From positions 124,001 through 188,000 of the forward strand of contig JAGRGQ010000001.1 in NCBI GenBank assembly GCA_020445405.1: a stretch of 64,000 nt of DNA, read 5' to 3'. The DNA comes from Gammaproteobacteria bacterium. Its GTDB lineage: Bacteria; Pseudomonadota; Gammaproteobacteria; Chromatiales; Chromatiaceae. Numbering within the stretch: the first letter of the stretch is position 1; each line of letters starts with the position of its first letter. Positions 43,181-64,000 of this stretch are shown here, in pieces. Position numbers and translations under genes: made by a program. The notes below the pieces were generated by a model. The model saw only the letters and a list, made by a program, of their open reading frames with translations. It did not search any database and was not told the DNA's origin.

Positions 43181-43190
43181 GTATAATAAC

Positions 43191-48016: not shown

Positions 48017-48040
48017 CGCTCCGTTGCTTTCTCGTCACAA

Positions 48041-48778
48041 CTATTTTTCTATTACGACCTTCTGGTAGAGACCACCGAAATAGGTCTTCTTTTCCACCGA
48101 ACGCAGCGGCGTATCCGCAGCCACCCAATCGGTAATCTCCGTTCGCCACAAATCCAGCGCAAATGGCTCCAGTGTTCTGAATATCAGCGGCATCAGATAT
48201 CGGTGGGGGTGCAACCAGAAAGGTCTGTGATAATCGACAAAGATCAACTTCCCGCCTGGTTTGAGTACGCGCAATGCCTCTGTTGCCGCGTTTTTTCTCA
48301 CCTCTTCAGGAAGTTCGTGCAGCAGAAAAAACATAAGCACCTGATCGAAGGAGCAGTCATCGAACCTGAGTCTGGCTGCATCCTGGCATTCGAGAACTAC
48401 TTTACTCCCGTTCAGCTTGCGCGACAGATTTTCCAGTTGGATCGGCGCCACATCCACCACATCGAGACGCGCGTCCGCTCCATGCCGCTGTGCCAGTTTC
48501 GGAGTGAGGTTTCCATAGACGCAGGCCACCTGCAGCGTGCGGCCGCTGATGGTTCGCCCCATCTCTTCCAAAGTGGCATCTCTGAGTCGCGCATAATTTC
48601 CCCACAGGATACCGTTGATCACCCATTGCTGTTCAAAGAAGCGCATACTCCGGGGGTGCAGGTAGGCCCACCAGTAATTCTTTTTTAAGTAATTGGGAAC
48701 AGCAGCCGGAGGTACCGCTTTCTCTTCGAATCCATCGATCACCGGTTCAGCAATACTTTGGACTGCATTTTTCTGCAT
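48041..48778 (-). CDS. rquA: Rhodoquinone biosynthesis methyltransferase-like protein RquA
   Basis: RquA converts ubiquinone to rhodoquinone; it is homologous to class I SAM methyltransferases such as UbiE but has been reported to use S-adenosylmethionine as amino donor. The 245-residue product shows the features that set RquA apart. NYWWAYLHPRSMRFFEQQW with NGILWGNYARLRD lies near the N-terminus. VACVYGNLTPKLA stands where methyltransferases have their glycine-rich SAM motif. Then come LDVVDVAPIQLENL, MFFLLHELPEEVR and FVDYHRPFWLHPHRYLMP. AGAGAG precedes the ATG. It diverges from frdABCD across 535 bases. Rhodoquinol has a low enough potential to drive fumarate reductase, so the placement makes functional sense. 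A plain ubiquinone methyltransferase is very unlikely given the lost glycine motif. Confidence 0.9.
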   Translation of the reverse strand: MQKNAVQSIAEPVIDGFEEKAVPPAAVPNYLKKNYWWAYLHPRSMRFFEQQWVINGILWGNYARLRDATLEEMGRTISGRTLQVACVYGNLTPKLAQRHGADARLDVVDVAPIQLENLSRKLNGSKVVLECQDAARLRFDDCSFDQVLMFFLLHELPEEVRKNAATEALRVLKPGGKLIFVDYHRPFWLHPHRYLMPLIFRTLEPFALDLWRTEITDWVAADTPLRSVEKKTYFGGLYQKVVIEK

Positions 48779-49313
48779 TATTATCTCTCTGGGTCGCTTT
48801 TCGATTATCGTTGGTTATTGGGAAACGCAACAGTGTCTTCGGTTGGCTGTCCGTTAAATACATTCTACATCAGCGTTTCCATCCATCTGCCGCCCATTTG
48901 TATTTTGTTATTGTAATCCGTAAAAATGTCGGGCAGATGCCCAGACTGTTACGGAAGCAAAAAAACTGATACATCTCTGTCATCGGTAAAGAAATGGCAG
49001 ATCAGCGTCACAGCACCAATTGGCACAATACAGAATTTATATAAGAAACCATTAAAACTGTTATCGGGCGAATGGATACTTGGATCGATGCCAAGTCTGC
49101 TTGTATACTCCCTTTTATTATCCAGCCTCCTTTATAATACTCTGTAACACTGTTGTCACAACAGATGCCAATAATATTTACTGATAAGTATAATCGCCAG
49201 GTTAATAGAGTCGCTGTATCACTATTCATCCCTGCTTCGATCCAGGGATTTATAACAAGTATGCAAGCTGCCGGTGGCTGCTTTATCCCGCCTGCAGGAC
49301 GAGGGGAAAATAG
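48779..49313. other. Divergent control region between rquA and frdABCD
   Basis: About 535 bases without a supported gene, AT-richer than the surroundings, with several -10-like boxes (for example TATAAT at 49133-49138 and 49189-49194). A perfect 15-base dyad lies at 49150-49164. The region must hold the promoters of both rquA and the fumarate reductase operon, so it is a natural place for oxygen or redox control. I did not find a clear FNR box. Confidence 0.55.
49150..49164. promoter_or_regulatory. Palindromic candidate operator upstream of frdA
   Basis: CTGTTGTCACAACAG is a perfect 7-1-7 dyad. Its centre is about 32 bases upstream of the TATAAT at 49189-49194. With transcription starting around 49201 it would sit near -44, close to where class II activators bind. 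It does not match the FNR or ArcA consensus. The weak -35 next to this -10 would suit an activated promoter. Confidence 0.4.
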
Positions 49314-51104
49314 ATGGAGATAATCAAAACCGATGTCGCAATCATCGGTGCAGGAGGGGCTGGGCTCAGAGCGGCCATAGCCGTTGCAGAGAGTGATCCC
49401 GGTCTTAAAGTTGCATTGATCTCAAAAGTCTACCCCATGCGCAGCCATACGGTGGCGGCGGAAGGGGGTGCGGCGGGCGTAAAAAAACCAACCGACAGCC
49501 TGGAGTACCACTTCCATGACACCGTGGGCGGAGGCGACTGGCTGTGCGAGCAGGATGTTGTGGAATACTTCGTCTCCCAGGCCCCGGTGGAACTGACCCA
49601 GCTTGAACATTGGGGTTGCCCGTGGAGCCGGACGGAAGATGGCCATGTCAATGTGCGGGCGTTTGGCGGCATGAAGATCGAGCGCACCTGGTTTGCGGCC
49701 GACAAGTCCGGATTTCATATTCTTCACACACTGTTCCAGACCTCAATCAAGTATCCCTCAATCAGGCGCTTTGACGAGCACTTCTGCGTCGACCTCGTCG
49801 AAGAGGACGGCCGGTGTCTGGGCGTCGTGGTCATCGAAACGTCGACGGGTGAGTTCAGTCTGATCGAAGCCAAGTCCGTGATAATTGCAACCGGCGGAGC
49901 GGGGCGTGTCTTCCGCGAAAGCACTCTCGGCGGCATCGTCACCGGCGATGGCATGGCACTGGCCTATCGTCACGGTGTCGCTTTGCGCGATATGGAATTT
50001 GTGCAGTATCACCCGACCTGCATGCCGGTTACGGGGCTGCTCTTTACCGAGGCCTGTCGCGGCGAGGGCGGATATCTGGTGAACAAGGACGGTTACCGCT
50101 ACCTGCAGGATTACGGTCTTGGCCCGCTGCAGGAGAAGCCAAAGAACAAATACATGGAACTCGGTCCGCGCGACCGACTCAGCCAGGCATTCTTCTTTGA
50201 AAAACAGCAGGGCCGAACCATCGAGCATCCGACGCTCGGTTCGGTGGTGCATCTCGATCTGCGCCATCTCGGCGAAGCCTATCTGCACGAGCGGCTGCCA
50301 CTGATTTACGAAATGGCCGAAACCTTCATGGGGATCGATCCCGCCAAGCAACCGATCCCGGTTCGCCCCGGGGTGCACTACACCATGGGCGGCATCAAGG
50401 TCGACGGCAGGTGCGCCACGTCGCTTCAGGGCCTTTACGCGATCGGCGAATGTGCGAGCGTCGGCCTTCACGGCGCCAACCGCCTGGGTTCGAACTCTCT
50501 GACTGAACTGCTTGTCTTCGGCAAAGTGGCCGGTGTCGAAGCCGCCGGAAATGCGAAATCTTCCGCGCCCGGGAATTCGTCAAATCTGCTTGAACAGGCA
50601 AAAGCGGTGGAACAACGCGCCACTGAACTGAAAACCAAAACGGACGGAACAGAGAAAATCGCGGTGATCCGCAAGGAGATGGCGCAAACGATGGAAGAGG
50701 GTTGCGGCATCTACCGCGTCGAGAAGACCATGCAGGCCACTTGCGACAAACTTGCCGAATTGCGCGAGCGTTTCAAGCGTATCAACATCGACGACAAGTC
50801 CAGCGTCTTCAATACCGAGTGGCTTACCGCGATCGAACTGGACAACCAGCTCGACGTGGCGCTTTCCATGGCGCACTCAGCGATCAACCGCAAAGAGTCC
50901 CGTGGCGCGCACCAGCGTCTCGACGGCTACGAAAAGCGTGACGACGTAAACTTCCTGAAGCATTCCGAAGCCTACTACGTTGCCGGCGGCGTACCGCGTA
51001 TTGCGTTGGGTGATGTCAAGATCACCAAATCGCAACCGGCCGAGCGGGTGTATGGTGCCGCGGGTGAAAAGGCAGACCAGGAAAGGAAAGAGTCCCATGA
51101 CTGA
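49314..51104 (+). CDS. frdA: Fumarate reductase flavoprotein subunit
   Basis: This is the catalytic subunit that reduces fumarate to succinate, facing the cytosol. The 596 residues show the FAD-binding start DVAIIGAGGAGLRAA and the covalent-FAD motif RSHTVAAEGG with His45. The substrate site is in HPTCMPVTGLLFTEACRGEGG, and the C-terminal signature is GLYAIGECASVGLHGANRLGSNSL. The end IALGDVKITKSQPAERVYG resembles E. coli FrdA (602 residues). Succinate dehydrogenase flavoproteins look similar, but the C- and D-type membrane subunits behind it are of the fumarate reductase kind. GAGGGGAAA precedes the ATG. The stop overlaps the frdB start by 8 bases. In this setting it supplies the fumarate-to-succinate step of a reductive TCA cycle. 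Confidence 0.95.
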   Translation: MEIIKTDVAIIGAGGAGLRAAIAVAESDPGLKVALISKVYPMRSHTVAAEGGAAGVKKPTDSLEYHFHDTVGGGDWLCEQDVVEYFVSQAPVELTQLEHWGCPWSRTEDGHVNVRAFGGMKIERTWFAADKSGFHILHTLFQTSIKYPSIRRFDEHFCVDLVEEDGRCLGVVVIETSTGEFSLIEAKSVIIATGGAGRVFRESTLGGIVTGDGMALAYRHGVALRDMEFVQYHPTCMPVTGLLFTEACRGEGGYLVNKDGYRYLQDYGLGPLQEKPKNKYMELGPRDRLSQAFFFEKQQGRTIEHPTLGSVVHLDLRHLGEAYLHERLPLIYEMAETFMGIDPAKQPIPVRPGVHYTMGGIKVDGRCATSLQGLYAIGECASVGLHGANRLGSNSLTELLVFGKVAGVEAAGNAKSSAPGNSSNLLEQAKAVEQRATELKTKTDGTEKIAVIRKEMAQTMEEGCGIYRVEKTMQATCDKLAELRERFKRINIDDKSSVFNTEWLTAIELDNQLDVALSMAHSAINRKESRGAHQRLDGYEKRDDVNFLKHSEAYYVAGGVPRIALGDVKITKSQPAERVYGAAGEKADQERKESHD

Positions 51105-51852
51105 GAACCTGAAAATCATTGAAATCGAGGTTCTACGCTATAACCCGGAGAGCGACCAGGAACCTCATCTGGAAGTTTACAGCGTCCCGTTTTCCGATGA
51201 CATGTCGGTTTTGCAGGGAGTGCAATACATCAAGGACAACTTCGACGGTTCGCTGACGTTCCGCTGGTCCTGCCGGATGGCCATCTGCGGCAGTTGCGGC
51301 ATGATGATCAACGGCATCCCCAAGCTGTCGTGCGAGACTTTCCTGCGCGACTACTATCCGGACCGGATCCGCGTCGAAGCGATGGCCCACTTCCCGATAG
51401 AAAAGGATCTGGTGGTCGATTTAAGCGGCTTCATCGAGAAACTCGAGAGCATCCAGCCCTACATCATTCCAAAGGAGCCGCGTTCGCTCGATCAGGGTGA
51501 ATATATCCAGTCACCCAAACAGTTCAACGACTACATCCAGTTTACCTCCTGCATCAACTGCACCCTGTGCTACGCTGCCTGCCCGCAGTTTGGCCTCAAC
51601 CCTGATTTCATCGGCCCCGGCGCCATAGCCCTGCTGCATCGCTACAACATGGACTCACGCGACGGTGCCGCAGCGGAGCGGATGGAATTGGTTGCGTCCG
51701 AAGAGGGTGTCTTCAACTGCAGTGCGGTCGGGTATTGTTCGGAAGTCTGTCCAAAGCATGTCGATCCGGCCAACGCCGTCAACATCAACAAAACAAACGC
51801 AGCGAAGGATTACTTCCTGCGCTTTCTCTCTCCGAAAGGAGGTGCCAAATGA
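51097..51852 (+). CDS. frdB: Fumarate reductase iron-sulfur subunit
   Basis: This is the 251-residue electron-transfer subunit between quinol and the flavin. It carries three clusters in order: [2Fe-2S] ligands in SCRMAICGSCGMMINGIPKLSC (residues about 62-85), [4Fe-4S] in CINCTLCYAACPQFG near 150, and [3Fe-4S] in CSAVGYCSEVCPKHVDP near 207-222. The last motif, with VGYCSEVCPKHVDP, closely follows E. coli FrdB. The ATG at 51097 overlaps the end of frdA, and the stop overlaps the frdC start by four bases (ATGA), so translation is coupled along the operon. Confidence 0.95.
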   Translation: MTENLKIIEIEVLRYNPESDQEPHLEVYSVPFSDDMSVLQGVQYIKDNFDGSLTFRWSCRMAICGSCGMMINGIPKLSCETFLRDYYPDRIRVEAMAHFPIEKDLVVDLSGFIEKLESIQPYIIPKEPRSLDQGEYIQSPKQFNDYIQFTSCINCTLCYAACPQFGLNPDFIGPGAIALLHRYNMDSRDGAAAERMELVASEEGVFNCSAVGYCSEVCPKHVDPANAVNINKTNAAKDYFLRFLSPKGGAK

Positions 51853-52247
51853 GCAAGCGTCGTCCCTATGTCCGCTCGATGGAGGGTTGGTGGAAGAAGA
51901 ACCCCTATTTCGTAGAGTACATGATTCACGAAAGCACGGCCCTGTTCGTGGCTGGTTACGCTTTCGTTCTGTTGGTCGGTTTGATCCGTCTGGGGCAGGG
52001 CGAGGCCGCCTGGAACGGCTGGCTGGAGGCCATGCAATCTCCGCTGTCGCTGATCTTTCACCTGGTTTTTCTGGTTGCCATCGCCTACCACACCTATACC
52101 TGGTTCAAGATCATGCCCATCACCATGCCGCCGATTATCGTCGGTGGAAAGCGGGTAGGGCCAGGCGTCATTACCGGCAGCGGACTGTTAGCGGCTGTCG
52201 GAGTCAGTCTGGTGATGCTTGTTCTGGTTTTCTGGTTCGGAGGTTAG
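51849..52247 (+). CDS. frdC: Fumarate reductase membrane anchor subunit C
   Basis: This 132-residue inner-membrane anchor with three hydrophobic helices holds FrdAB and, with FrdD, forms the quinol site. It begins SKRRPYVRSMEGWWKKNPYFVEYMIHESTAL, matching E. coli FrdC ([20 protein letters not shown]). The WW-K and the later HTYTWFKIMPITMPP are family features. FrdC/FrdD-type reductases carry no haem in the membrane part. The quinol used in E. coli is menaquinol; here the nearby rquA suggests rhodoquinol. Confidence 0.95.
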   Translation: MSKRRPYVRSMEGWWKKNPYFVEYMIHESTALFVAGYAFVLLVGLIRLGQGEAAWNGWLEAMQSPLSLIFHLVFLVAIAYHTYTWFKIMPITMPPIIVGGKRVGPGVITGSGLLAAVGVSLVMLVLVFWFGG

Positions 52248-52251
52248 CATT

Positions 52252-52620
52252 ATGAAATCTGGACTGAAACGTTCCAATGCGCCGATATTCTGGAGCCTGT
52301 TTGGTGCCGGAGGGATGTTGTCAGCGCTTTTTGGACCTGCGCTGGTGTTTATCACCGGGATCGCGGTGCCCTTTGGTTTTCTGCTCCCGGCAGACGCGAT
52401 GAGCTATCCCAAGATGCTGGCGTTTGCGCAGAACCTCATCGGCAAGGGGTTCATCCTGGCGGTGATAGCCCTGTTTCTGTGGTTTGCCGCGCATCGCATA
52501 TATCATTCCCTGCACGAGTTCGGTATTCATGCCGGTCTTGCGGCAAAACTGATCTGCTACGGCTCGGCTTTCGTCGCCACGGTAATTTCCGTGGTGGTGT
52601 TGCTGGGACTGGGCTTCTGA
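52252..52620 (+). CDS. frdD: Fumarate reductase membrane anchor subunit D
   Basis: This is a 122-residue anchor subunit with three membrane helices, partner of FrdC. The start GLKRSNAPIFWSLFGAGGMLSALFGPALVF closely resembles E. coli FrdD (RSDEPVFWGLFGAGGM). The segment HRIYHSLHEFGIH near residue 80 carries the conserved His/Arg around the quinol pocket. The ATG at 52252 follows the frdC stop by 4 bases; starting at 52219 would overlap frdC and add 11 unlikely residues. It closes the frd operon, which converges with the last gene of the rnf side 46 bases on. Confidence 0.95.
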   Translation: MKSGLKRSNAPIFWSLFGAGGMLSALFGPALVFITGIAVPFGFLLPADAMSYPKMLAFAQNLIGKGFILAVIALFLWFAAHRIYHSLHEFGIHAGLAAKLICYGSAFVATVISVVVLLGLGF

Positions 52621-52666: not shown

Positions 52667-53758
52667 CTACGGGGGCTGGAAGTCAAACCTAATTGCAGAG
52701 CTTCCATCGAATCCCCATAAAGAATCTGACCCGGTTGCCAGTGCAGGTTGGCCGCCCAGATGACCTTTCAGCGTCGACAGGATGATCTCGTCCGTAGTCT
52801 TGTTGGTCTGCAGGTCTATTTTCAGCAGAACACCCGGTACCCTATGGACATTCGAGCAGAATGTTGAAATCCAAAGCCCACCGTCCCAGAGTACCGGTGT
52901 CTTCGGGCTTGCATGCACCGCGCACACAGCTATGGACCTTTTCAATGGTATAGTCGCGGCAACGAGATTGCTGGCAGCATCGATGCGTACCGCAACCGGT
53001 ATAAATTCGCTTCCTGTTTGTTCGCGTTCACCCAAAATCCAGACGGACCCAGCGACGAAACGGAGTCGATCAGATGTATGATGAAGGGCAATGGGTATCT
53101 CGGCGATAACCTTTTTCGAATGTGGATCGATCCGGCGTAATAAATCAACACCATTTCCATGAATGTATTGCCAGATGTCGCCTTCGCCAAAAGAAAAATC
53201 ACCAATCCCCGATGAACCTGTCGTGACCAATTGGGTGTGCACTTGGTTGTCTGATGCGTTGATCCCGGTTACAACGCCTGTTCGGAGGTTATAAGCCCAG
53301 ATCGACCCGTCACCACTGGCAAAAGGACTCCCTGCATCCTCAACGACCGCGATCGTCTGATTGGTGGTTGGATCGATACGAAACAATTCACCGCGGCCGG
53401 TGGATTTTGTCATGCCATCCGAAAGCCATATCGAGTGTTCGTCAACCAATAGATCGGCGATTCCACCGGTCCACGGCCGGGAAAGCTCCGCCACTTGGTA
53501 GGTCTCAGTATTGACTCTTATGTTTTTGTGTCGCCCGAGAGGACTGGGCTCGGTAGCCCAGGCAGATTTGGCAGCAATTTGTACATTTCCCTGACCAGTA
53601 GCAGAGAAGGGCAGAGACACGCGGGTAATCTGTACTTGTCTACCATGCAATGTGTGAATCAGATCCGTCCGGATGGTGCCTGTAGGAGTGGAGGTGCATC
53701 CAGAGAGCAATAATGCACAGTACACAACGGATGAAACAAACGAAGGGTGTTGCGCCAT
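52667..53758 (-). CDS. Lipoprotein with beta-propeller-like repeats, unknown function
   Basis: This is a 363-residue exported protein. The signal peptide ends in a lipobox (CALLLSGC), so it is a probable lipoprotein with the mature Cys at residue about 21. The rest is made of repeats of the type LFRIDPTTNQTIAVVEDAG, LRRIDPHSKKVIAEIPIAL, LLKIDLQTNKTTDEIILST and SIWAYNLRTGVVTGINA. These are typical of YVTN/virginiamycin-B-lyase-like beta-propellers that bind ligands rather than catalyse. I chose the ATG at 53758 since it gives the signal directly; 53794 adds 12 residues. It lies 32 bases after the tiny cysteine-rich gene at the end of the rnf operon, in the same direction, so it may be cotranscribed. 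Confidence 0.7.
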   Translation of the reverse strand: MAQHPSFVSSVVYCALLLSGCTSTPTGTIRTDLIHTLHGRQVQITRVSLPFSATGQGNVQIAAKSAWATEPSPLGRHKNIRVNTETYQVAELSRPWTGGIADLLVDEHSIWLSDGMTKSTGRGELFRIDPTTNQTIAVVEDAGSPFASGDGSIWAYNLRTGVVTGINASDNQVHTQLVTTGSSGIGDFSFGEGDIWQYIHGNGVDLLRRIDPHSKKVIAEIPIALHHTSDRLRFVAGSVWILGEREQTGSEFIPVAVRIDAASNLVAATIPLKRSIAVCAVHASPKTPVLWDGGLWISTFCSNVHRVPGVLLKIDLQTNKTTDEIILSTLKGHLGGQPALATGSDSLWGFDGSSAIRFDFQPP

Positions 53759-53790
53759 ATGTAATGGGTTGCCGTTAAACTTCCAAACGA

Positions 53791-53952
53791 TCAATTAAGA
53801 TCCCGATTTTCACAACCACTGCAACCACTGCAGCGGCTTTTTGGCGGGTCATCATCGGGATCCGGATCGAGCCTACCCAGTAACTGCTGCAAATAGACCC
53901 AGACTCCGCACAGCGCTCCAAGTCCCAGAATGGCGATAAGATAAGTCAGCAT
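53791..53952 (-). CDS. 53-residue membrane-anchored cysteine-rich protein at the end of the rnf operon
   Basis: This small gene is easily missed by size. The product has one N-terminal membrane helix (MLTYLIAILGLGALCGVWVY), a short linker, an acidic patch (DPDPDDDPP), and a C-terminal CSGCSGCENRD with three closely spaced cysteines. It starts 26 bases after the rnfA stop in the same direction, and no other gene fits in that gap. The layout of a membrane helix plus a small thiol cluster recalls NqrM, the maturation factor of the related Na+-NQR, but the motif is different and I cannot claim homology. A role in iron delivery or assembly of Rnf iron-sulfur sites would be a reasonable guess. The ribosome site is weak. 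Confidence 0.65.
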   Translation of the reverse strand: MLTYLIAILGLGALCGVWVYLQQLLGRLDPDPDDDPPKSRCSGCSGCENRDLN

Positions 53953-53978: not shown

Positions 53979-54557
53979 TCAGGTTGCACTGAACAGCCCG
54001 GCGAAACCCATGAAGGCCATCGATAGAATACCGGCAATAATCAGGTTCATCGCGGTTCCCCTGATAAGCGCAGGTACATCCGACAGTTCAACCTCCTCGC
54101 GTATGCCCGCCATCAGCACCAGCGCCAGCGTGAAGCCGGCGCCCGCGCCGAATGCGAACACCAGCCCTTCGGCCAGCCCATAACCGCGGTTGGTGGCGAA
54201 TATGGCAAGACCGAGGATTGCGCAGTTGGTCGTGATCAGCGGCAGAAATATACCCAGTGCCTTGAACAGCGCGGGACTCAGCTTCTTGATCACCATCTCG
54301 ATGAACTGCACCGTGCTTGCGATCACGACGATGAAACTGATCAGTCTGAGATAGGGCGCATAAACCAATACATAGGTGTTCAGAAACCAGCTGCACAGTG
54401 CGGTGATCAGCATCACGAATATCGTCGCCAGTCCCAGGCGGAAGGCGGTATCGAGCCGTCCGGATACACCCAGAAACGGGCACAAGCCGAGAAAATAAGA
54501 GAGCACGAAGTTGTTGATCAGCAATGCGCTGACAAATATCCACAGCAGCTCGTTCAT
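53979..54557 (-). CDS. rnfA: Rnf complex membrane subunit RnfA
   Basis: This 192-residue integral membrane subunit of the Rnf ferredoxin:NAD+ oxidoreductase has six helices. The beginning NELLWIFVSALLINNFVLSYFLGLCPFLGVSG carries a conserved Cys, and TTNCAILGLAIFATNRGYG near residue 110 carries the second. These Cys pairs in RnfA and RnfE hold a membrane iron-sulfur cluster in structures of Rnf/NQR. It overlaps rnfE by four bases. Rnf moves electrons between ferredoxin and NADH coupled to Na+ or H+ flow; here it may run in reverse to make reduced ferredoxin. Confidence 0.96.
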   Translation of the reverse strand: MNELLWIFVSALLINNFVLSYFLGLCPFLGVSGRLDTAFRLGLATIFVMLITALCSWFLNTYVLVYAPYLRLISFIVVIASTVQFIEMVIKKLSPALFKALGIFLPLITTNCAILGLAIFATNRGYGLAEGLVFAFGAGAGFTLALVLMAGIREEVELSDVPALIRGTAMNLIIAGILSMAFMGFAGLFSAT

Positions 54558-55204
54558 TGCGCTTCACTCTCCAGCTGCGTCAGACGCTGTTCGAGCCGTT
54601 GCTTGCGCTCCTTGACCCAGCTGAAAAAGAGCAGCAGAAGACCCAGCGTGAGGAAACCTCCGGGCGGCAGAATCATGATTACCCAGGGTTCGAAATCGGG
54701 TCCGAACAGCGAAAAGCCAAACAGCTTTCCTTCACCAAGTATCTCACGCACCGTTCCCAATGACAGCAGTGCAAACAGAAAGCCGGCAGCCATACCCAGT
54801 GCGTCCATTACGGCCAGGCGCACCGAGTTTCTGGAGGCAAACGCCTCCTGTCTTCCAAGAATCATGCAGTTGACGACGATCAGCGGTATGAACGCACCAA
54901 GCTCTTTATGGATCTTCGGCACCAGCGCCTCGAGCGTGAAATCGGTGACCGTAACGAAGGTGGCGATGATGATGATGTAGGTGGAGATGCGCACCTGTCG
55001 CGGTATCCAGAGGCGCAGCGACGATACCAGGAAACTCGATCCGACCAGCACGAAAAAGGTGGCGGCTCCCATTGCCAATGCGTTCACCGCGGTATTTGTG
55101 ACCGCCAGCATCGGGCACATGCCGAGCACCTGGACGAACACCGGATTGTCGCGCCAGATCCCCTTGATGAACTCCTGATGCAGATCCTCTTTATGCTTCG
55201 CCAT
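54554..55204 (-). CDS. rnfE: Rnf complex membrane subunit RnfE
   Basis: This is a 216-residue membrane subunit, paralogue of RnfA, with six helices. Family marks are FIKGIWRDNPVFVQVLGMCPMLAVTNTAVNALAMG at the start, with one of the cluster Cys, and FIPLIVVNCMILGRQEAFASRN near residue 100 with the other. The C-terminal tail (KERKQRLEQRLTQLESEAQ) is a short charged helix. It lies 3 bases after rnfG and overlaps rnfA, in the usual G-E-A order for part of the operon. Confidence 0.96.
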   Translation of the reverse strand: MAKHKEDLHQEFIKGIWRDNPVFVQVLGMCPMLAVTNTAVNALAMGAATFFVLVGSSFLVSSLRLWIPRQVRISTYIIIIATFVTVTDFTLEALVPKIHKELGAFIPLIVVNCMILGRQEAFASRNSVRLAVMDALGMAAGFLFALLSLGTVREILGEGKLFGFSLFGPDFEPWVIMILPPGGFLTLGLLLLFFSWVKERKQRLEQRLTQLESEAQ

Positions 55205-55207
55205 GGC

Positions 55208-55864
55208 TTACCTCTCTGCCTCCGGCCCGGATGCCTGTTCCAACCGCGGTAACCAGAGCCGATTGGCCTCGTTGATGATGCGCACGACCGCCTTCGATGA
55301 GATGGTGGCGCCGGTGATGGCATCAATATCACTGGCTGCCTTGGGTTTTCCCTTTTTGATCGCACGGATCTCCGGATCGACGGAAAGTGACTCGAAGTTG
55401 GCGACGAACGCCGGGTCCTTATAGATCTTATCGCCCAGGCCGGGAGTCTCGCGACTTTCCAGAATTTCCATGCCGGAGATCTTCCGCTGTTCCGGAATGT
55501 AGCCGTAGAGAAGGCGGATGGTGTCCTGAAAACCGGGACCGGCACCGGGAATGGCGTATCCCACCAGCCTGCCGGACGCGTCGAAGCCGCTAAAGATCGC
55601 CTCATCGCCTTTCTGCACCTGGTCGTTGACGGTCAGCGCCCTGTCCCGGTAGACCAGGCGCTGCATGCTGGTGACACCCGGCAGTACCTTGAATACCGCC
55701 TCCTCCAGCACCTTCGCTTTGTAAGCGGTGATGGTCGGTAGTGTGGTTTCATAGGCGAGCACGATGATCAGACCGGACAGCAGGCCGGCGAAACTGAGTG
55801 TCGCGATCAGTTTCAACGACCCCGGATCACCTTTGCCGACGTGGGTGTTCCGGCTGCTGCTCAT
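55208..55864 (-). CDS. rnfG: Rnf complex FMN-binding subunit RnfG
   Basis: This is a 218-residue subunit with one N-terminal membrane helix (LIATLSFAGLLSGLIIVLAY) and a periplasmic flavin domain. FMN is bound covalently to a threonine in the motif TGATISS near residue 184-190 (Thr187 as acceptor). The upstream segments FDASGRLVGYAIPGAGPGF and ETPGLGDKI belong to the same FMN-binding domain. Flavin attachment needs an ApbE transferase, which is not in the window. It overlaps rnfD by four bases. Confidence 0.96.
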   Translation of the reverse strand: MSSSRNTHVGKGDPGSLKLIATLSFAGLLSGLIIVLAYETTLPTITAYKAKVLEEAVFKVLPGVTSMQRLVYRDRALTVNDQVQKGDEAIFSGFDASGRLVGYAIPGAGPGFQDTIRLLYGYIPEQRKISGMEILESRETPGLGDKIYKDPAFVANFESLSVDPEIRAIKKGKPKAASDIDAITGATISSKAVVRIINEANRLWLPRLEQASGPEAER

Positions 55865-56880
55865 TGGTTCTTGATCCCTTTGCCGAACACGCGAGGCTGG
55901 GTGTAGCGGTCAATCAGCGGCGTGGCGGCATTCATCAACAGAATCGCGTACATGACCCCCTCGGGGAAACCGCCGTAGATCCTGATCAGAATCACCAGCA
56001 GACCGATTCCGACCGCGAATATCCAGGCTCCCCGGGGTGTCAGAGGCGACGTGACTGGATCGGTGGCCATATAGATGGCGCCAAGCAGCAGTCCGCCGGA
56101 GAAGATGGAGAACAGCGGGCCGGGAAATTTAATGGGATCGAGTATATAGAGCACTGCGGAAAACAGCGCCGCAGAACCGAGGATCCCCGCCGGTATCCGC
56201 CAGTCCAGGTCCCGCCGCAACAGCAGGTAGAGGCCGCCGAGCAGCAGCAGCAATCCGCTGGTTTCGCCGATGCAGCCGGAAGTGTTACCGCTGACGAGTG
56301 CCCAGAGTGCGGTTGACTGCTGCTCGAATTTCATCAAACCCAGCGGTGTGGCGGCACTGACGCCGTCATAGGCCGCCTGCATGAACGGGGCGGCCAGATT
56401 ACTTGCACTGATTTGAAAAAAATCCGCCGGTCCCGTCTGCGGGCTCCAGGTGGTCATGGCAATGGGAAAGGTGGCAAGCAGAAACGCGCGGCCGACCAGC
56501 GCCGGATTGAATAGATTCTGGCCCATGCCGCCCCAGATCAGCTTGCCCAGACCGATGGCGGCAGCGCCGCCGATAAAAGCCATCCAGAGGGGCAGGGCAG
56601 GCGGCAGCGTCAGGCCCAGCAGCAGACCCGTGAGCAGCGCGGTATAATCGCTCAAACGTTCGAAACGACTGTCGGCAGGGGAGAATATCCACTCGGTCAA
56701 CATCGCACCGGCGATACTGCAGAGCAGCACCAGCAACGCGCCCAGTCCGAAATACCAGAGTCCCGCGAGGGTGGCCGGCAGCAGCGCCAGCAGCACGTCG
56801 CGCATAGTCTGACCAGTGGTCATGTTCTGCTTCAGTAGTGGTGCTGCCTGCAGCTGCAGCCGTGTCTCTTTCGGTTTCAT
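55861..56880 (-). CDS. rnfD: Rnf complex FMN-binding membrane subunit RnfD
   Basis: This is a 339-residue membrane subunit with eight to ten helices and covalent FMN on a threonine. The attachment motif is SAATPL, with Thr178 following the family SxATPL pattern. SGCIGETSGLLLLLGGLYLLL and TDPVTSPLTPRGAW further on are conserved RnfD segments. I chose the ATG at 56880, which overlaps the rnfC stop (ATGA) and gives the normal start MKPKETRLQLQAAPLLK; reading from 56979 would put 33 extra residues into rnfC. Confidence 0.95.
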   Translation of the reverse strand: MKPKETRLQLQAAPLLKQNMTTGQTMRDVLLALLPATLAGLWYFGLGALLVLLCSIAGAMLTEWIFSPADSRFERLSDYTALLTGLLLGLTLPPALPLWMAFIGGAAAIGLGKLIWGGMGQNLFNPALVGRAFLLATFPIAMTTWSPQTGPADFFQISASNLAAPFMQAAYDGVSAATPLGLMKFEQQSTALWALVSGNTSGCIGETSGLLLLLGGLYLLLRRDLDWRIPAGILGSAALFSAVLYILDPIKFPGPLFSIFSGGLLLGAIYMATDPVTSPLTPRGAWIFAVGIGLLVILIRIYGGFPEGVMYAILLMNAATPLIDRYTQPRVFGKGIKNQ

Positions 56881-58211
56881 ACGACTTTGCCTGCGGATTG
56901 CCGCAGCTGCGATTTCGCGGTACGGATCAGTTGCACTATCGGTATCCCGGAGGGGCAGGAGAAGGTACAGGAACCGCACTCAACGCAATCCATGATCGAA
57001 TAGCGCGGCATCTCCTCGTACAGGCGCGCTCTCGCCAGCCTGGCAAGCCGCGACGGATTGAGAAAATACGGACAGGCCTCCAGACAGCGGCCACAGCGGA
57101 TACAGGCGTACTCGCGGCTCTGGACGGAACGCGGTTTGCGGAATGCGAGAATACCGGAGGTGCCTTTGAGTACCGGCACGTCCAGGCTGGCGACGCTGGT
57201 TCCCATCATCGGTCCACCCATCACCACCTGGGAGACACCCTCCTTCAGTCCGTCACAGAATTTGAGGACTTCCCGCAGCGGCGTACCGAGCGGTACCAGA
57301 AGATTGGAGGGTTGCTCGACGCCGTCGCCGGAAACGGTTACCACCCGCTCAATCAGCGGCATCCCGAATTCAAACCAGTCGGCGACAGCCAGTACGCTGC
57401 CAACATTGTTTACCACCATACCGAGATCCCTGGGCAAGCCGCCAGCCGGAACCTCCCTGCCGAAGATCGACTTGATCAGCATCTTTTCCGCGCCCTGAGG
57501 ATACTTGACGCGCAGAGGCGCCACCTGAATCGGCTGACCGGGTTTGATGTGCCGTCGCAGAATTTCAATAGCGTCCGGTTTATTCGTCTCCACGCCGATA
57601 GTTGCTGATCTGGCACCCAGATTGTGCAGCAGAATCTCTATACCCCGCAGCAGGTCATCAGGCCGTTCCACCATCATGCGGTGGTCATTGGTCAGAAAGG
57701 GTTCACACTCGGCGCCGTTCACCAGCAGATGCTCTATATGCTGGCCTTCGGGGATCGAATATTTGGCATGGGCGGGAAAAGCCGCTCCTCCCATACCGAC
57801 GATTCCGGCGCGCTGAATTTCAGCGACAAACTCCTCGGCGCCCAGCTGCCGCCAGTCACGTGCCGCACGCGGGAACTGCTGGGTGTCGAAAGGATCGGCC
57901 TCGATCACGATCGAGCGTGCGAATACGCCGCCGGGATAGCGGCGGTTGTCGATCGCCCGTACCCAGCCCGCCACCGGACTGTGCAGACTGGTGGAGATAA
58001 ACGCGCCCGGTTCTGCAATAAGTTCTCCCCGGTGTACCCGGGCTCCCACCTCGACCACCGGCTTTGAAGGTGCGCCAAGCTGCTGGTTCAAAGGCATCAC
58101 ATACTCGCGCACGAAGGGCATCCGCTGAATCGGCAGCGACACGGTGGCTTCTTTCGATTCGCGCGGGTGCACGCCATGGGCAAAGCTGAACTTCAGCAGT
58201 TTCGACAGCAC
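56877..58211 (-). CDS. rnfC: Rnf complex NADH-binding iron-sulfur subunit RnfC
   Basis: This 444-residue cytosolic subunit binds NADH and FMN and carries two [4Fe-4S] clusters. The start FAHGVHPRESKEATVSLPIQRMP and the hammerhead-type segment EVGARVHRGELIAEP are family features. AGIVGMGGAAFPAHAKY is the nucleotide-binding loop. The clusters are in CIRCGRCLEACPYFLNP and CVECGSCTFSCPSGIP near residues 365 and 405. It is compact, without the long alanine-rich tail of E. coli RsxC (740 residues). It lies 36 bases after the POR-like gene and overlaps rnfD. Confidence 0.95.
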   Translation of the reverse strand: MLSKLLKFSFAHGVHPRESKEATVSLPIQRMPFVREYVMPLNQQLGAPSKPVVEVGARVHRGELIAEPGAFISTSLHSPVAGWVRAIDNRRYPGGVFARSIVIEADPFDTQQFPRAARDWRQLGAEEFVAEIQRAGIVGMGGAAFPAHAKYSIPEGQHIEHLLVNGAECEPFLTNDHRMMVERPDDLLRGIEILLHNLGARSATIGVETNKPDAIEILRRHIKPGQPIQVAPLRVKYPQGAEKMLIKSIFGREVPAGGLPRDLGMVVNNVGSVLAVADWFEFGMPLIERVVTVSGDGVEQPSNLLVPLGTPLREVLKFCDGLKEGVSQVVMGGPMMGTSVASLDVPVLKGTSGILAFRKPRSVQSREYACIRCGRCLEACPYFLNPSRLARLARARLYEEMPRYSIMDCVECGSCTFSCPSGIPIVQLIRTAKSQLRQSAGKVV

Positions 58212-58247: not shown

Positions 58248-61200
58248 TCATAGCGGAGCATGTGATTTCCCCTCACTGGTCGCATCGTATCCCGCCATCG
58301 CCATCAACCGCATTCGGATCTCGGAACGCGACTGTTCCAGCAGCTCCCGTTTGAGTTCGCTGATCCGGGCTTCGTAGCTCGATTGCATATTCTCCAGCGC
58401 CGTCCGATGTGCTGCTGCGACATTCTGCTGCGCCTGCTGTTCGACGCGGCGTGTGAACGGCGTCACCAGACCGGCTATTTCCTGCAGGGTCCTCCAGCAC
58501 CGCAGCCGCTCCTCACAAACCGTAACCAGTGGCGCTTTCACCCGGTAGCGGACGGTGGCTGTATGCATACCAGAATCCGGAATGAATGGCTCCTTCCCGG
58601 CACGCGACATCTCCGGAAGGGCCAGGTACTCCGCCAGCGGAAGCGTGTCCGGCGCATCCGCAGGCAGCCGCGAGAGCCATTGGGCGAAGCGACGCTCTCC
58701 CAGCATCCAGTGCGCGGTTGTCACCGGCTGGCCTGATTCGTCCGACAACCAGCCGCTGTCGGGATCAGGATTTTCCGCCAGGCTGAAGCGCGAACCGAAA
58801 ACCCCTTCGGCTCCGGGATCGTAAAGAAACAGTGGAAAGGTCCGCGTCTTCACCGCAAGACGTGCCTGCATGACAGTCTGGTCCGCAGGAAAGCCATGCC
58901 TGCCGGGACTGGGCGCATGGATCTGAATCAGCGCCGGTCCGGGAAAGTTCAATGCGGTCTCGACTGTTGCCGCAAGGTGTTCGGGATAACCTACCGAACA
59001 CTGCGCATTCAGGCTGCTGCGCCAGGCGAGTGTCAGCAGCGCAAGATCCATCCCGGTATCCTGAATGGGAGAGAGCGGCAGTCCGGTGTTCGCACCGGCG
59101 GCAAGTCCAAAGTCGAGTTCCGGGAAGACTATGAACTTGATCGGCAGATTACCCGCCATTATCCCTGACAGCTGCGACAGCCCCCGCCCGGCGAGGAGCG
59201 AGCTGCTGCCGACGACGATGACCGGCGGACAGAGCGCACGTTCCTCCATCGTCAGATCGTCCCAACCCAGATTATCCAGTGTCGACCACAGGCGTGCCGC
59301 ATCGGCCGGGCTCTCCAGCTCCACCCGCGCCTTGCGCATCAACACGAAGCCCTCCAGCGCCTGCTGCAATTGACCCTGCAGCAGACCGGCAGCATATTGT
59401 GCTGCGTCTCCGGTGGTATCCACCGTTACCGGCACGGCGAACGGATTGTCCGGAAAAACGCCGGCCCAGCCTGCGGGCAGGTTGCTGCAGAGCACCAGGC
59501 CCAACCCAGCCCGTCCGAAACCCTGCCGGCCCTCGGCCAGCTGCCATGAAAGATCCCGCAGTTTTTGCGCCAGGCTTACCAGCCGGCGCAATCTCAAAGC
59601 ATCGATCCGGGCATCGATCGTGCCCTCTGTTTCGTTGATGAAGCTGGTCAGGTCGGTCTCTCTGGTATCGACGCTGTCCAGCCCCGTCGCCAGTGCATCC
59701 AGATCATCCGCAGGCAACGCGTCGGCAAGCATCTTCCTGATCAGATTGGACAACTTCTCCCGGACAGCACCCACATCCGCGATAAACGCCGTCATCAGCG
59801 GCTGCTGCCTGGCTACCGCCGTCGCCAGCAGCAGGCGCAGCGCCAGACGCTCTCCCGACCCTGGCTCGGCGCCGTCGCCGGCGCCGAGCGAACAGCGAAA
59901 GCGTTGCGCCATCAGCGCGGCTGCGGGCTTGCCTGGTAAGCTGCCGGCACCGGCCTGCTCCATCGTCGCTTGTGTCGTCTCCGGCAGTTGCTCCCAATTC
60001 TTCCAGTTGCGTTTTGCTTCCGCCGCCAGTTCGCGGGTCTGGTTGCCAAGCGTCATCGCACCCGGTTCACAGTTGCTGACGCAGATGCCGCACCCTTTGC
60101 AGATCGCCGGATTGACGGCCAGGAAAAGAACGGTGCCGCTACCGTTCAATTGGGTTTCGGGCTCCCGGTAAAGTGCATCGGTCAGCGCCATCGGCAGTGT
60201 TCCCAGCGCGCCGACAATTTTCTCCTGAGCCTCGGCCAGCAGCTGTTTGCGGGGTTCCGGCAGGGATTGCTGCAGCATCCAGTCGAACGCGCCATCCAGC
60301 AGCTCACCGGCGGTTACCGGCGCCGCTCCCCGCACCCGGCAGTTGGCGGCCATGCGTTTAGACAAATTGGAAGAGAGCGGACGGAGCGCCTCCATACCGG
60401 TTACGCGCATTCCGGTCTCGAGCAGTGCACCCGGCTCCAATGCAGTGACTCCAACGGCGCCGTCCGGGCAGAGAGTCCAGCAGGCGCCGCAGCCGGTGCA
60501 GGCTTCCGCATCCAGAACCGGCAGTGTCTTACGCAGCCGGTCGAACTGCCTGAAGGCTGCGGAGAGCGGTGGCAGAGCGCCTATTGCCAGATAGGGATCC
60601 GGGGTGAGCCGACTCGATTTACGATCCCGGTAGAGTACTCCGGTCTGGTCCCAGAAACGGGGCAGGCTGTCATAGTTGTCGTCGATGTTTCCCATCCGGT
60701 GCAGCTGCGGAGGGATCATGTCTGCATTGGTCAAGGCATCCGTCGGGAGAGCCGTCAATGTCGCCGGATCGACGCTGATCAGCTGGTCAAATCCCTCTCT
60801 GAAGGCGTGCAGGCGCGCATTCCGGGCATCCTCCGACAAGTCGGATAATACTGTTTCACGGTGGGACAGAAGGCGGCGAAATCCGGTCTCCAGCAGCGCT
60901 CTCTCGAGCAGTATTCCCAATGTGGCCCCCAGAAGCCGCTCCCTGCGCAGACCAGCATCGCCGTCCGCCTTGTGGCTATCCACACAGTAGAGTCGTCCGC
61001 CGCGTCGTTGCAGGCACACTATCAGCTCCGGCGGCAGGCGGATATCATCCGCCCCGGCTTGCTCGAGCAACAGGCAACCCTGCTGATTCAGTTCCAGTCC
61101 CGAGGCGATTGTGTCAATGGCACTGTCGGTGACAATTGCGAGATCGACGGGCAGTCTGTCGCCCGGATCACGCAACTTCCCGGGTGCCCAGATAAACCAG

Positions 61201-62792
61201 TCGATGCACGCATCGCCCCAGGGTGCCGGCGAGTGCGCCATGCGGCTGCGCAGCTCGCCACCGGCAGCCCGCCACAGGAAGTCGGCCATCTCCTGGGCCA
61301 GTCCGTCACCGCCGGTTCCAGATATCCGGTGGAATGCCAGCGCGATGGCGTCTTCCGGACCCAGATCGGGCTGATCTTCATGACTGCCGGATAATCCCCA
61401 CTCGTCCAGTTCGGGGTAGTTCCGGCGGAGCCGGTCCAGCAGAGCCTGGCGTTTGGGATACGGGTCGGCACCCGGATCGAAGCGGACGCCCAGATAGACC
61501 CGCCTCTTCTGAATCCTCTCCACCTGATGACAGAGTTCGACCAGATCCGAGGCGCGCAGTGGCAGCCCGCCCAGTCCATAGAGCACGGATAGCAGCCGGG
61601 GACGGTTCCGCCCGTCTCGGCCGATAGCCGTCGACAGCGCCCGCAGCAGGGGAGGATCGGATGTCGCCGGGGAATCCAGGCGCTCCAGAATACAAACCGT
61701 CTTTGCTTTTTCCAGCTTTTCCGCGATCAACCCACTGGGAAAAGGCTGCACGGTGCGTATACCGAGCACACCAATCTTCAGCTTCCGGGTTGAACGGAGT
61801 CGATCAGCCACTGCTTCTGCCGTCTCGATGGCCGATCCCAAGGCTACCAGTATCAGACCCGCATCGCTGAGCCGATAGTCGCTGACCTCGGCGTATTGGC
61901 GTCCGCTGCGGCGGGCAAACAGTTCGATGGATTCCGTCACTGATTTGGCCAGCGTCTCTTCCAGATAGAGCCGGGACGCGGCCTTTCCCAGTCCCCAGAT
62001 CTCGGTTGGCTGCACGCTGCCCAGCATGACAGGCCTGTCGGAGTTGTACCAGCGCGGTAGCCGTCGGCGTTCACTGCCGAACAGCAGTTTCTCGGCTGGG
62101 ATAGCGCTGGGAACCGGATCATCGGGCCGTCCCAGGAAATCTTCGAGCAGCTGCCAGGAGGGCAGATTGACCTGTTGCGGCGCCGCTGCGGTCTGCTCGC
62201 GGTCCATGAACACCAGACCGGGCAGCAGCGTCTGTTCAGCTACCCTGCGTGCAATCAGGGAAAAATCGACCGCTTCCTGCACATTGGCCGCGCACAGCAG
62301 AAAGCAACCGCTCTCTGCGCTCAGGTGAAGCGCTTCGTGACCGCTGCCCAGCGCTGCGGATGCGCCGCCTGTTGCGCGATTTTCGACATGTATGACAAGC
62401 GGCAGATGCCGCCCGGCCATGGTTGCCAGCAGATCCTGAAGGGAGGCTGCCTCCTGCCCGGATATGAATGCAGTGGCCCGTACTCCAGACTGTGCCAGCC
62501 CGGCTGCGGACGCCAGTGCGCCTCTGGGCCCCTCGGCAGCAACGGTGGTGAGCCGACTCTGATGTTCATCGTCCTGTCTGCGGCACTGCTCGGTACGCCA
62601 GGTCATCGCGGCGATATCGTTTGGCGCGGACGCGCCCAGACCGGCAGCCTGGCTGACAGCCGCCTCCATCAGGGCGACGGCACTGTTTCCGTCGAGCACT
62701 GCAGCGAAACCGTTATCACTTTTCACGGATTGGGATCGACTGCCGAGCAGGCGCTTTAGCAGCCTTAGGGACGAATCAGTGAAGCTGTGCAT
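58248..62792 (-). CDS. Large pyruvate:ferredoxin-oxidoreductase-family protein inside the rnf operon
   Basis: This is a 1514-residue single-chain relative of pyruvate:ferredoxin/flavodoxin oxidoreductase. The order is a POR N-type domain (about 30-240; EGPRGALASAAGLAQSGV, HLPLVIHVENRATGGASAALG), a transketolase-C-like domain (about 270-420), a gamma-type domain (about 430-680; GTGGDGLAQEMADFL), and two [4Fe-4S] sites (CTGCGACWTLCPDG near 764-775, CKGCGICVSNCEPG near 896-907). After these comes a degenerate thiamine-diphosphate domain and a C-terminal coiled coil (about 1450-1500). Where active enzymes have GDG and NTGGQ, this one reads VVGSSSLL near 1194 and GANTGLPLS near 1234. Decarboxylation is therefore doubtful, and electron transfer to or from Rnf is more likely. 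It overlaps rnfB by 17 bases and is followed by rnfC. It is longer than ordinary single-chain POR (about 1170-1230). Confidence 0.78.
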   Translation of the reverse strand: MHSFTDSSLRLLKRLLGSRSQSVKSDNGFAAVLDGNSAVALMEAAVSQAAGLGASAPNDIAAMTWRTEQCRRQDDEHQSRLTTVAAEGPRGALASAAGLAQSGVRATAFISGQEAASLQDLLATMAGRHLPLVIHVENRATGGASAALGSGHEALHLSAESGCFLLCAANVQEAVDFSLIARRVAEQTLLPGLVFMDREQTAAAPQQVNLPSWQLLEDFLGRPDDPVPSAIPAEKLLFGSERRRLPRWYNSDRPVMLGSVQPTEIWGLGKAASRLYLEETLAKSVTESIELFARRSGRQYAEVSDYRLSDAGLILVALGSAIETAEAVADRLRSTRKLKIGVLGIRTVQPFPSGLIAEKLEKAKTVCILERLDSPATSDPPLLRALSTAIGRDGRNRPRLLSVLYGLGGLPLRASDLVELCHQVERIQKRRVYLGVRFDPGADPYPKRQALLDRLRRNYPELDEWGLSGSHEDQPDLGPEDAIALAFHRISGTGGDGLAQEMADFLWRAAGGELRSRMAHSPAPWGDACIDWFIWAPGKLRDPGDRLPVDLAIVTDSAIDTIASGLELNQQGCLLLEQAGADDIRLPPELIVCLQRRGGRLYCVDSHKADGDAGLRRERLLGATLGILLERALLETGFRRLLSHRETVLSDLSEDARNARLHAFREGFDQLISVDPATLTALPTDALTNADMIPPQLHRMGNIDDNYDSLPRFWDQTGVLYRDRKSSRLTPDPYLAIGALPPLSAAFRQFDRLRKTLPVLDAEACTGCGACWTLCPDGAVGVTALEPGALLETGMRVTGMEALRPLSSNLSKRMAANCRVRGAAPVTAGELLDGAFDWMLQQSLPEPRKQLLAEAQEKIVGALGTLPMALTDALYREPETQLNGSGTVLFLAVNPAICKGCGICVSNCEPGAMTLGNQTRELAAEAKRNWKNWEQLPETTQATMEQAGAGSLPGKPAAALMAQRFRCSLGAGDGAEPGSGERLALRLLLATAVARQQPLMTAFIADVGAVREKLSNLIRKMLADALPADDLDALATGLDSVDTRETDLTSFINETEGTIDARIDALRLRRLVSLAQKLRDLSWQLAEGRQGFGRAGLGLVLCSNLPAGWAGVFPDNPFAVPVTVDTTGDAAQYAAGLLQGQLQQALEGFVLMRKARVELESPADAARLWSTLDNLGWDDLTMEERALCPPVIVVGSSSLLAGRGLSQLSGIMAGNLPIKFIVFPELDFGLAAGANTGLPLSPIQDTGMDLALLTLAWRSSLNAQCSVGYPEHLAATVETALNFPGPALIQIHAPSPGRHGFPADQTVMQARLAVKTRTFPLFLYDPGAEGVFGSRFSLAENPDPDSGWLSDESGQPVTTAHWMLGERRFAQWLSRLPADAPDTLPLAEYLALPEMSRAGKEPFIPDSGMHTATVRYRVKAPLVTVCEERLRCWRTLQEIAGLVTPFTRRVEQQAQQNVAAAHRTALENMQSSYEARISELKRELLEQSRSEIRMRLMAMAGYDATSEGKSHAPL

Positions 62793-63639
62793 AACGGTTC
62801 TCCCTTCGGGTCATGGCAGATCCCTGATCGGTAAACTGAGGACCTTCGAGCCACTGAATAGCGCCGGTGGGGCAGCGAAACGTGGCATCCGGCAGCGCCG
62901 GTCCACCGGCCGAGTAGTCGACCAGGGGCAGATTCTCCACCATCTGTATCAAACCCTGCGCGGCGTCGGCTGCGCATCGGCCACAGGCGTCACAGGCGAC
63001 TTTGCAAAGCGCCATGGCCGCGTCGCCGCGCAACGGGGTGCTGCACTGTACGAACAACTTCTGCGCCAGCGGGGCCAACACAAACAGATTGCGCGGGCAG
63101 GCCTCGACGCAATCCCCGCATGCCGTGCACTTATCGATATCCACTTCCGGCAGTCCGTTCCGGTTTAAATGTATCGCGTCGAAATCACAGGCTATGCCGC
63201 AGTCGCCGAGCCCCAGGCAGCCCCAGGAGCAGCCTTTACCTCCACCGGAAACGCTGGCGGCGGCGCGGCAGTTTTCGAATCCCCGGTATTCGGCGATCTG
63301 GTAAGCCTGATTTTTACCGCCCGCACAGCGCAGGCGCGCGACACGCCGTTCCTGCTGTCCCGGATCGACATCGAGCAGATCGGCGACCGCATCGATGGTA
63401 TCCGCGCTCGCCACTGTGCACTGGCTCGGTTTGAGCGTACCCAATACCAGTTTTTCGGCAAATGCATGACATCCGGGTTGGCCGCAGGCACCGCAGTTGG
63501 AGCCGGGCAACAGCATCTCCGTCTCCTCGATCCTGGGATCCTCCACAACCTTCAGAAAACGGTAGGCAACCGCCAGAATCACCGAAAAAAAGAGTCCTAA
63601 CCCGGCCATGATGGCCGGTGCAACAAGCAGGCCGCTCAT
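62776..63639 (-). CDS. rnfB: Rnf complex ferredoxin-interacting iron-sulfur subunit RnfB
   Basis: This is a 287-residue subunit with an N-terminal membrane helix (LVAPAIMAGLGLFFSVILAVAYRFL) and several clusters. The first site is GSNCGACGQPGCHAFAE plus the Cys in KPSQC. Two ferredoxin-like sites follow, in CLGLGDCGIACDFDAI and CTACGDCVEACPRNLF. A further Cys group lies at CKVACDACGRCAADA near residue 220. The C-terminal part ends FRCPTGAIQWLEGPQF. I chose the ATG at 63639, which overlaps the stop of the upstream ferredoxin-like gene (ATGA). A start at 63732 would add 31 residues lying inside that gene. RnfB accepts electrons from soluble ferredoxin and passes them on. Confidence 0.95.
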   Translation of the reverse strand: MSGLLVAPAIMAGLGLFFSVILAVAYRFLKVVEDPRIEETEMLLPGSNCGACGQPGCHAFAEKLVLGTLKPSQCTVASADTIDAVADLLDVDPGQQERRVARLRCAGGKNQAYQIAEYRGFENCRAAASVSGGGKGCSWGCLGLGDCGIACDFDAIHLNRNGLPEVDIDKCTACGDCVEACPRNLFVLAPLAQKLFVQCSTPLRGDAAMALCKVACDACGRCAADAAQGLIQMVENLPLVDYSAGGPALPDATFRCPTGAIQWLEGPQFTDQGSAMTRRENRYAQLH

Positions 63640-64000
63640 TGGTTGAACGGTGCCGCTCGTTGGATCAGGGCGTCCAGACCGGGTTCGTCTGGATTCAGGG
63701 GCATACCGGGATGAATGCATTTTGCCGGGCACAGCTCCGCCGCCGCGACCAGCTGTGCGTAGGTGCCGTTGCTGGGGTCACCCATCAGCGCCTGCTTCTC
63801 CTCGTTGTAGATAAACAGCTGGGAATTGATCTTGAGACAGTCGTTGCAGCTGGTGCACAGCGGCGTATCAATCCAGGGCTCGTCGAAGTTGAGGCTCTCT
63901 TCGATCTCCGCGTCGGGAATCTGTTGCGGTGCCGGGATCTGCTCCGTTTCTGCTTCCGACGCAGTCTGATTGGCGGATACGACTCTGGTTGACGCAACGG
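63636..64000 (-). CDS. Ferredoxin-domain protein, 5' end beyond the window (POR-associated type)
   Basis: The last 365 bases read on the minus strand without a start, ending in a TGA at 63638-63636 that overlaps the rnfB ATG. The visible 120 residues have an acidic, Gln/Pro-rich linker and then a cluster region, WIDTPLCTSCNDCLKIN, with the fourth Cys probably in AELCPAKCIHPG. The ending PLNPDEPGLDALIQRAAPF resembles the closing part of ferredoxin domains found in POR/oxoacid oxidoreductase-type proteins. The N-terminus lies outside, so the full protein may be much longer, for example a second oxoacid-oxidoreductase-like chain. It is translationally coupled to rnfB and therefore belongs to the rnf operon. 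Confidence 0.75.
   Translation of the reverse strand, partial: VASTRVVSANQTASEAETEQIPAPQQIPDAEIEESLNFDEPWIDTPLCTSCNDCLKINSQLFIYNEEKQALMGDPSNGTYAQLVAAAELCPAKCIHPGMPLNPDEPGLDALIQRAAPFNQ

Follow-up and report, generated by a model that had tools for sequence, protein, structure and literature searches.

Gene order at the rnf locus

The window, by which we mean the whole 64,000-nucleotide stretch of gammaproteobacterial DNA analysed here, carries rnfA, B, C, D, E and G in a single cluster on its minus strand, the gene set that identifies an Rnf locus, and between rnfB and rnfC lies an open reading frame for a 1514-amino-acid protein that we refer to as BIG. With the part outside the window taken from the whole-genome sequence, the operon reads korA-korB-858-rnfB-BIG-rnfC-D-G-E-A (858 encodes a protein of 858 amino acids), with tiny gaps or overlaps throughout. 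The BIG open reading frame shares 17 nt with that of rnfB, and 36 nt separate it from rnfC downstream, in agreement with the earlier note, which had it overlapping the one and preceding the other; rnfD, G, E and A follow rnfC with few-base gaps or overlaps.

53979-54557, minus strand: rnfA (PF02508)
54554-55204, minus strand: rnfE (PF02508)
55208-55864, minus strand: rnfG (PF04205)
55861-56979, minus strand: rnfD (PF03116), open reading frame as listed; the start may be further in
56877-58211, minus strand: rnfC (TIGR01945, E = 7.6e-153)
58248-62792, minus strand: BIG, a degenerate giant PFOR-like protein of 1514 amino acids (open reading frame, Pfam, structural relatives, alignment)
62776-63732, minus strand: rnfB, long form; the start is probably at 63639, judging from homologues of 287 amino acids
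63636-64000, minus strand: C-terminal end of 858, a putative dead POR half with Fer4_13; the gene runs outside the window to 190212 on contig C111 of the host genome (G000)
To 191189 on the same contig, beyond the window: korB, adjoining 858
To 193082 on the same contig, beyond the window: korA, next past korB

A 375-amino-acid protein with DUF6923 repeats is encoded downstream of rnfA (52667-53794, minus strand).

KorA, of 628 amino acids, contains the gamma-alpha domains (POR, POR_N and PFOR_II) and scores over the TIGR03710 cut-off, and KorB, of 317 amino acids, contains TPP_enzyme_C and PFO_beta_C domains and scores below that of TIGR02177 (239.7 vs 261.9); 49 of 49 sequences preserve the TPP and cysteine active-site motifs of KorB (48 for the third cysteine). 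By these motifs KorAB is an intact 2-oxoacid:acceptor oxidoreductase. The solved protein closest to KorA is the Magnetococcus 2-oxoglutarate:ferredoxin oxidoreductase (OGOR, 6n2n), and KorA and KorB share its fold family and its motifs; the genes differ from the Magnetococcus type in lying in one operon with rnf genes and with two apparently dead POR proteins. Dimeric korAB is reported to be common among gammaproteobacterial autotrophs (PMC6315080).

Lost and retained sites in BIG

Pfam finds the PFOR domain order in BIG, with POR_N at residues 80-222, PFOR_II at 311-415 and two Fer4 stretches at 758-779 and 892-912, and the closest solved proteins are the PFORs 7plm and 1b0p (E = 1e-31). The earlier reading of a real 1514-residue POR-family protein, with the POR domain order and two [4Fe-4S] sites, is thus upheld. 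An AlphaFold2 model of residues 701-1514 (mean pLDDT 81; the N-terminal half was judged from sequence only) superposes on 7plm with a Z of 26.4 and 3.6 angstrom over 433 residues. BIG therefore resembles PFOR/NifJ enzymes (D. africanus 1b0p/7plm, M. thermoacetica 6cin, E. coli YdbK) in domain order, in the fold of its C-terminal half (Z 26) and in two ferredoxin-type clusters, evident in both the Pfam matches and the cysteine motifs; it differs from them in its rnf-operon location, in an extra C-terminal helix and, above all, in its active site.

58296-58460, minus strand: predicted 55-residue C-terminal helix, BIG residues 1445-1499 (AlphaFold2 model)
59202-59210, minus strand: GSS at the position of the metal/TPP motif GDG, residues 1195-1197 (alignments)
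59850-59876, minus strand: DGAEPGSGE where intact relatives have CxGCGE of the proximal cluster, residues 973-981 (alignments)
60069-60101, minus strand: second kept 4Fe-4S motif CKGCGICVSNC, residues 898-908 (cysteines in 47-49 of 50 homologues)
60468-60500, minus strand: first kept 4Fe-4S motif CTGCGACWTLC, residues 765-775 (cysteines in 47-50 of 50 homologues)

We aligned BIG and its close kin (type A, n=8) with two groups of larger relatives from the same and related genomes (type B, n=13; type C, n=3) and with four canonical PFORs, E. coli YdbK among them. Residues such as Thr31, Glu64 and Cys812 are numbered as in the D. africanus enzyme. The motifs of Thr31, Glu64, GDG and SNTGGQ and the four proximal-cluster cysteines are missing in all eight type A proteins, and are retained in 13/13 type B, 3/3 type C and 4/4 canonical enzymes. 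For example, BIG residues 1191-1202 read VIVVGSSSLLAG, where intact relatives have VVAVGGDGAMYD, and neither NTGGQ nor the proximal-cluster cysteines occur in any of 50 aligned type A homologues. The replacement of GDG by a GSS-containing stretch and the lack of NTGGQ had both been noticed from the sequence of BIG; alignment to intact POR proteins bears out this degeneration of the TPP motifs and extends it to the equivalents of Thr31, Glu64 and the four proximal-cluster cysteines.

The ferredoxin-type sites have fared differently, as all eight of their cysteines are present in 47 of the 50 homologues. The three exceptions are loci of Phycisphaerales MAGs (Planctomycetota; L086, L087 and L130), which have the operon and show BIG cysteine losses in both clusters, each with substitutions of its own; the BIG clusters would thus be dispensable there, and electron transfer through BIG would not be universal. 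Values of dN/dS for BIG between close pairs are 0.06-0.20, indicating purifying selection, and together with the open reading frames they rule out pseudogene decay; with the gene present at 80 or more loci, it is not a chance frame. The motif losses and the purifying selection together indicate, at the level of sequence, that BIG descends from PFOR and is maintained, and that nothing in it points to a TPP site.

The C-terminal coiled coil of the earlier note is only partly supported, since one long 55-residue helix is predicted and heptad periodicity in it does not rise above that of shuffled sequence; a classical coiled coil is therefore not favoured. In the structure model of 858 the C-terminus is likewise a predicted helix of 55 residues, which suggests that the two proteins may touch through these helices.

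Relatives of BIG and distribution of the operon

The type B giant PORs are about 1650 amino acids long and 26-31% identical to BIG, with TPP motifs and proximal, medial and distal clusters intact and a Fer4_13 domain fused at the C-terminus; our search of the literature found no name for them. The rnfB-rnfC slot is taken by type B in numerous relatives, as it is in the second Rnf cluster of the host genome (L030), and in Persicobacter (Bacteroidota) the type B gene lies directly before rnfC, with rnfB after rnfA. Those of L030, Persicobacter and Gemmatirosa share with BIG the operon slot, ancestry, long inserts and two ferredoxin clusters; they differ in keeping every TPP and proximal motif and the fused Fer4_13, all lost from BIG, the Fer4_13 being found instead on 858. 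Type B genes adjoin rnfC, mostly with rnfB on their other side, at L030:1597-6546 (contig C277 of the host genome) and also at L032, L034, L037, L040, L041, L054 and L055, and their product is possibly an intact giant POR wired directly to Rnf. The host genome has three different Rnf clusters, one of type A (contig C111), one of type B (contig C277) and an ordinary one with a third rnfC (contig C289).

A profile comparison matches residues 31-857 of 858 to the stretch 712-1649 of the type B chain (E = 4e-96). It leaves the type B sites for TPP and for the proximal, medial and distal clusters without a counterpart in 858, and the ferredoxin domain is retained, the C-terminal Fer4_13 being the sole Pfam match and its cysteines invariant in 36 of 36 sequences. 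By this alignment 858 is a second dead POR copy, corresponding to a giant POR's C-terminal half in which only the ferredoxin domain has been preserved.

A tree rooted on canonical PFOR gives types A, B and C as one clade each (100/100) and makes the losses of type A derived; it carries a long-branch warning that bears on the branching order among A, B and C. The type C giant POR (1710 amino acids, L031:7664-12796, contig C256 of the host genome) has intact motifs and no rnf genes near it, and its neighbour (L031:4722-7628) encodes a 968-amino-acid protein with GltD-like (Fer4_20, Pyr_redox_2) and DHODB-like parts that resembles a fused NfnAB.

A scan of genome contigs with the single BIG protein gave no match; an alignment-based scan gave 98 relatives, of which 80 were kept. 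The hosts are Chromatiaceae, Thiodiazotropha, Thiosymbion, tubeworm symbionts, Sedimenticola, Parabeggiatoa/Thiomargarita/Thioploca, Woeseiaceae and the three Phycisphaerales MAGs. The position between rnfB and rnfC, whose frequency the earlier note had wished to see surveyed, proves common: rnfB is directly upstream of BIG in 62 of the 70 loci with enough sequence, and rnfC directly downstream in 39 of 60. Further upstream are 858 (45/57 loci), korB (42/52) and korA (39/49), and the full row korA-korB-858-rnfB-BIG-rnf is found at 30 loci, in Phycisphaerales as well as Gammaproteobacteria. Some lineages have korAB-858 apart from rnfB-BIG-rnfC; in one genome (G019) both parts are present on separate contigs, and in tubeworm symbionts rnfC is elsewhere, away from BIG.

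Of the 11 genomes in the window's family that have the operon-type KorA, 10 also have BIG, the remaining one being a draft of 88% completeness; none of the 22 family genomes without this KorA has BIG (Fisher p about 1e-7). Four further families of the class give 6/6 against 0/19 genomes, the 19 being without a comparable KorA; these counts are non-independent through kinship, and the pattern recurs outside the window's family. 858 is present in all six BIG genomes of those four families. BIG and 858 thus co-occur near-strictly with one KorA subtype and not with other OGORs.

A proposed link between KorAB and Rnf

Beside the rnf operon, at 40897-52620 and within about 13 kb of rnfA, is a reverse-TCA-like neighbourhood.

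40897-43134, plus strand: isocitrate dehydrogenase
43374-44645 and 44730-47459, plus strand: ATP-citrate lyase
48041-48778, minus strand: RquA (rhodoquinone synthesis)
49314-51852, plus strand: fumarate reductase/succinate dehydrogenase, flavoprotein and Fe-S subunits
To 52620, plus strand: two small open reading frames that may be the membrane subunits of the fumarate reductase/succinate dehydrogenase

Rnf couples ferredoxin and NAD(H) to the transport of Na+ or H+ and can work in both directions. KorAB brings TPP and the proximal cluster, BIG two clusters and 858 the ferredoxin domain, which together make up the redox set of a single type B chain, and it is mainly this complementarity that leads us to favour, with some reserve, the reading that BIG and 858 are pseudoenzyme adaptors that join KorAB to Rnf and pass electrons between them. 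Both proteins would derive from a giant PFOR-type enzyme that is still intact in the rnfB-rnfC slot of related Rnf clusters. Catalysis would be supplied by KorAB of the same operon, with its TPP and proximal 4Fe-4S cluster, while BIG and 858 would hold KorAB against RnfB/RnfC so that electrons could pass either way through their clusters without free ferredoxin; the outcome would be a 2-oxoacid:NAD(H) oxidoreductase bound to the membrane and coupled to ion flow. In many sulfur oxidisers a dead 2-oxoacid enzyme fixed in the Rnf operon thus probably wires KorAB to the membrane pump. The lost and kept sites, the intact KorAB motifs, the derived nature of the losses, synteny, co-occurrence and selection are all read from sequence; from them we infer complex formation, the electron path, the substrate (most likely 2-oxoglutarate) and the direction. 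Points that count against this reading are the cysteine losses of the Phycisphaerales BIG proteins, the lineages in which korAB-858 and rnfB-BIG-rnfC are separated and the displaced rnfC of tubeworm symbionts. In the host genome the nearby ATP-citrate lyase, isocitrate dehydrogenase and fumarate reductase would favour the reductive direction, with NADH and the ion-motive force driving 2-oxoglutarate synthesis. A fuller version, which we offer tentatively, is a KorAB-858-BIG-RnfBCDGEA supercomplex in which succinyl-CoA is reductively carboxylated to 2-oxoglutarate at the expense of NADH and the ion-motive force, with no free ferredoxin, or in reverse 2-oxoglutarate oxidation pumps ions, an Rnf-associated POR having been turned into a dead electron wire.

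Other roles can be imagined for the two proteins. It seems unlikely that they are purely structural or assembly factors, docking KorAB to the membrane or stabilising Rnf while electrons travel by soluble ferredoxin or directly from KorB to RnfB; the three Phycisphaerales loci, which lost BIG ferredoxin cysteines yet kept the gene and the operon, agree with such a role, but the persistence of all eight cysteines in 47 of 50 BIG proteins, and of those of 858 in 36 of 36, would be hard to explain without electron transfer. We give rather little weight to the suggestion that BIG and 858 are additional electron-input or ligand-sensing subunits of Rnf using soluble ferredoxin or another donor, with KorAB merely co-regulated and making ferredoxin. 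Free ferredoxin is the normal partner of KorAB-type enzymes, and rnfB adjoins BIG at 62 of 70 loci even where korAB is elsewhere; the near-strict tie of both proteins to one KorA subtype, and not to other OGORs, points the other way. Finally, the retained fold (7plm, Z 26.4) and conserved residues near the former active site, E976 and PSPxRHGF among them, could be taken to mean that BIG is an active TPP enzyme through alternative residues, which we regard as very improbable given that GDG, NTGGQ, Glu64, Thr31 and all proximal-cluster cysteines are missing in the type A proteins tested.

The earlier note proposed a repurposed electron-transfer or docking subunit for Rnf, and this much agrees with a missing active site alongside retained ferredoxin clusters, with the close packing of the operon and with conservation; an adaptor between KorAB and Rnf is nevertheless likelier than an extra subunit of Rnf alone, because the operon also contains intact KorAB and 858 and an intact sister enzyme holds the same slot elsewhere. 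BIG is a separate protein, so the word fused in the note's Rnf-POR-like complex holds only in that the genes share an operon. All six subunits of RnfABCDGE adjoin BIG, and the locus differs from a standard Rnf in the addition of two POR-derived proteins and KorAB, which the ordinary Rnf of the same genome does without.

A search of the open-access literature found no description of a korAB-rnf operon or of a degenerate POR pair. The Hdr-Flx/KorABCD link of tubeworm symbionts (PMC6315080, PMC11636981) is likewise a proposed direct feed of low-potential electrons to a 2-oxoglutarate oxidoreductase; it differs in using flavin-based bifurcation and a four-subunit KorABCD, in place of Rnf and dead POR proteins. 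Rnf and OGOR/PFOR isoforms are listed as being of unknown function or direction (PMC11636981), and Rnf genes inside rTCA clusters have been reported.

A 2-oxoacid oxidoreductase tied to the ion-driven Rnf by dedicated dead-enzyme adaptors would, if true, be a directly testable answer to the question of how sulfur oxidisers come by electrons of sufficiently low potential for the ferredoxin-dependent reverse-TCA carboxylases. The hosts of the operon include tubeworm and clam symbionts as well as giant and purple sulfur bacteria. BIG would, moreover, exemplify the conversion of a large redox enzyme to a wire or scaffold, and the host genome, by also encoding the intact sister, offers its own comparison.

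Rnf may drive 2-oxoglutarate synthesis in a reverse TCA cycle of the host genome, a reductive role made plausible here by the neighbouring isocitrate dehydrogenase, ATP-citrate lyase, RquA and fumarate reductase and by the distribution of ATP-citrate lyase, which 8 of the 11 type A genomes have, compared with 1 of the 22 others. That role is not general, as ATP-citrate lyase is absent from three type A genomes of the family (G009, G017 and G019), and the idea that the cycle is used in all type A genomes is rejected on this ground. A study of Riftia symbionts reports that sulfide limitation lowers 'PFOR-like' together with a dimeric korAB(3) and raises rTCA genes (PMC11636981); the first two may be the present genes, and if so their behaviour argues against a general rTCA role. 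Most type A genomes encode 2-oxoglutarate dehydrogenase E1, the host genome in two copies, so KorAB is not simply a substitute for that enzyme.
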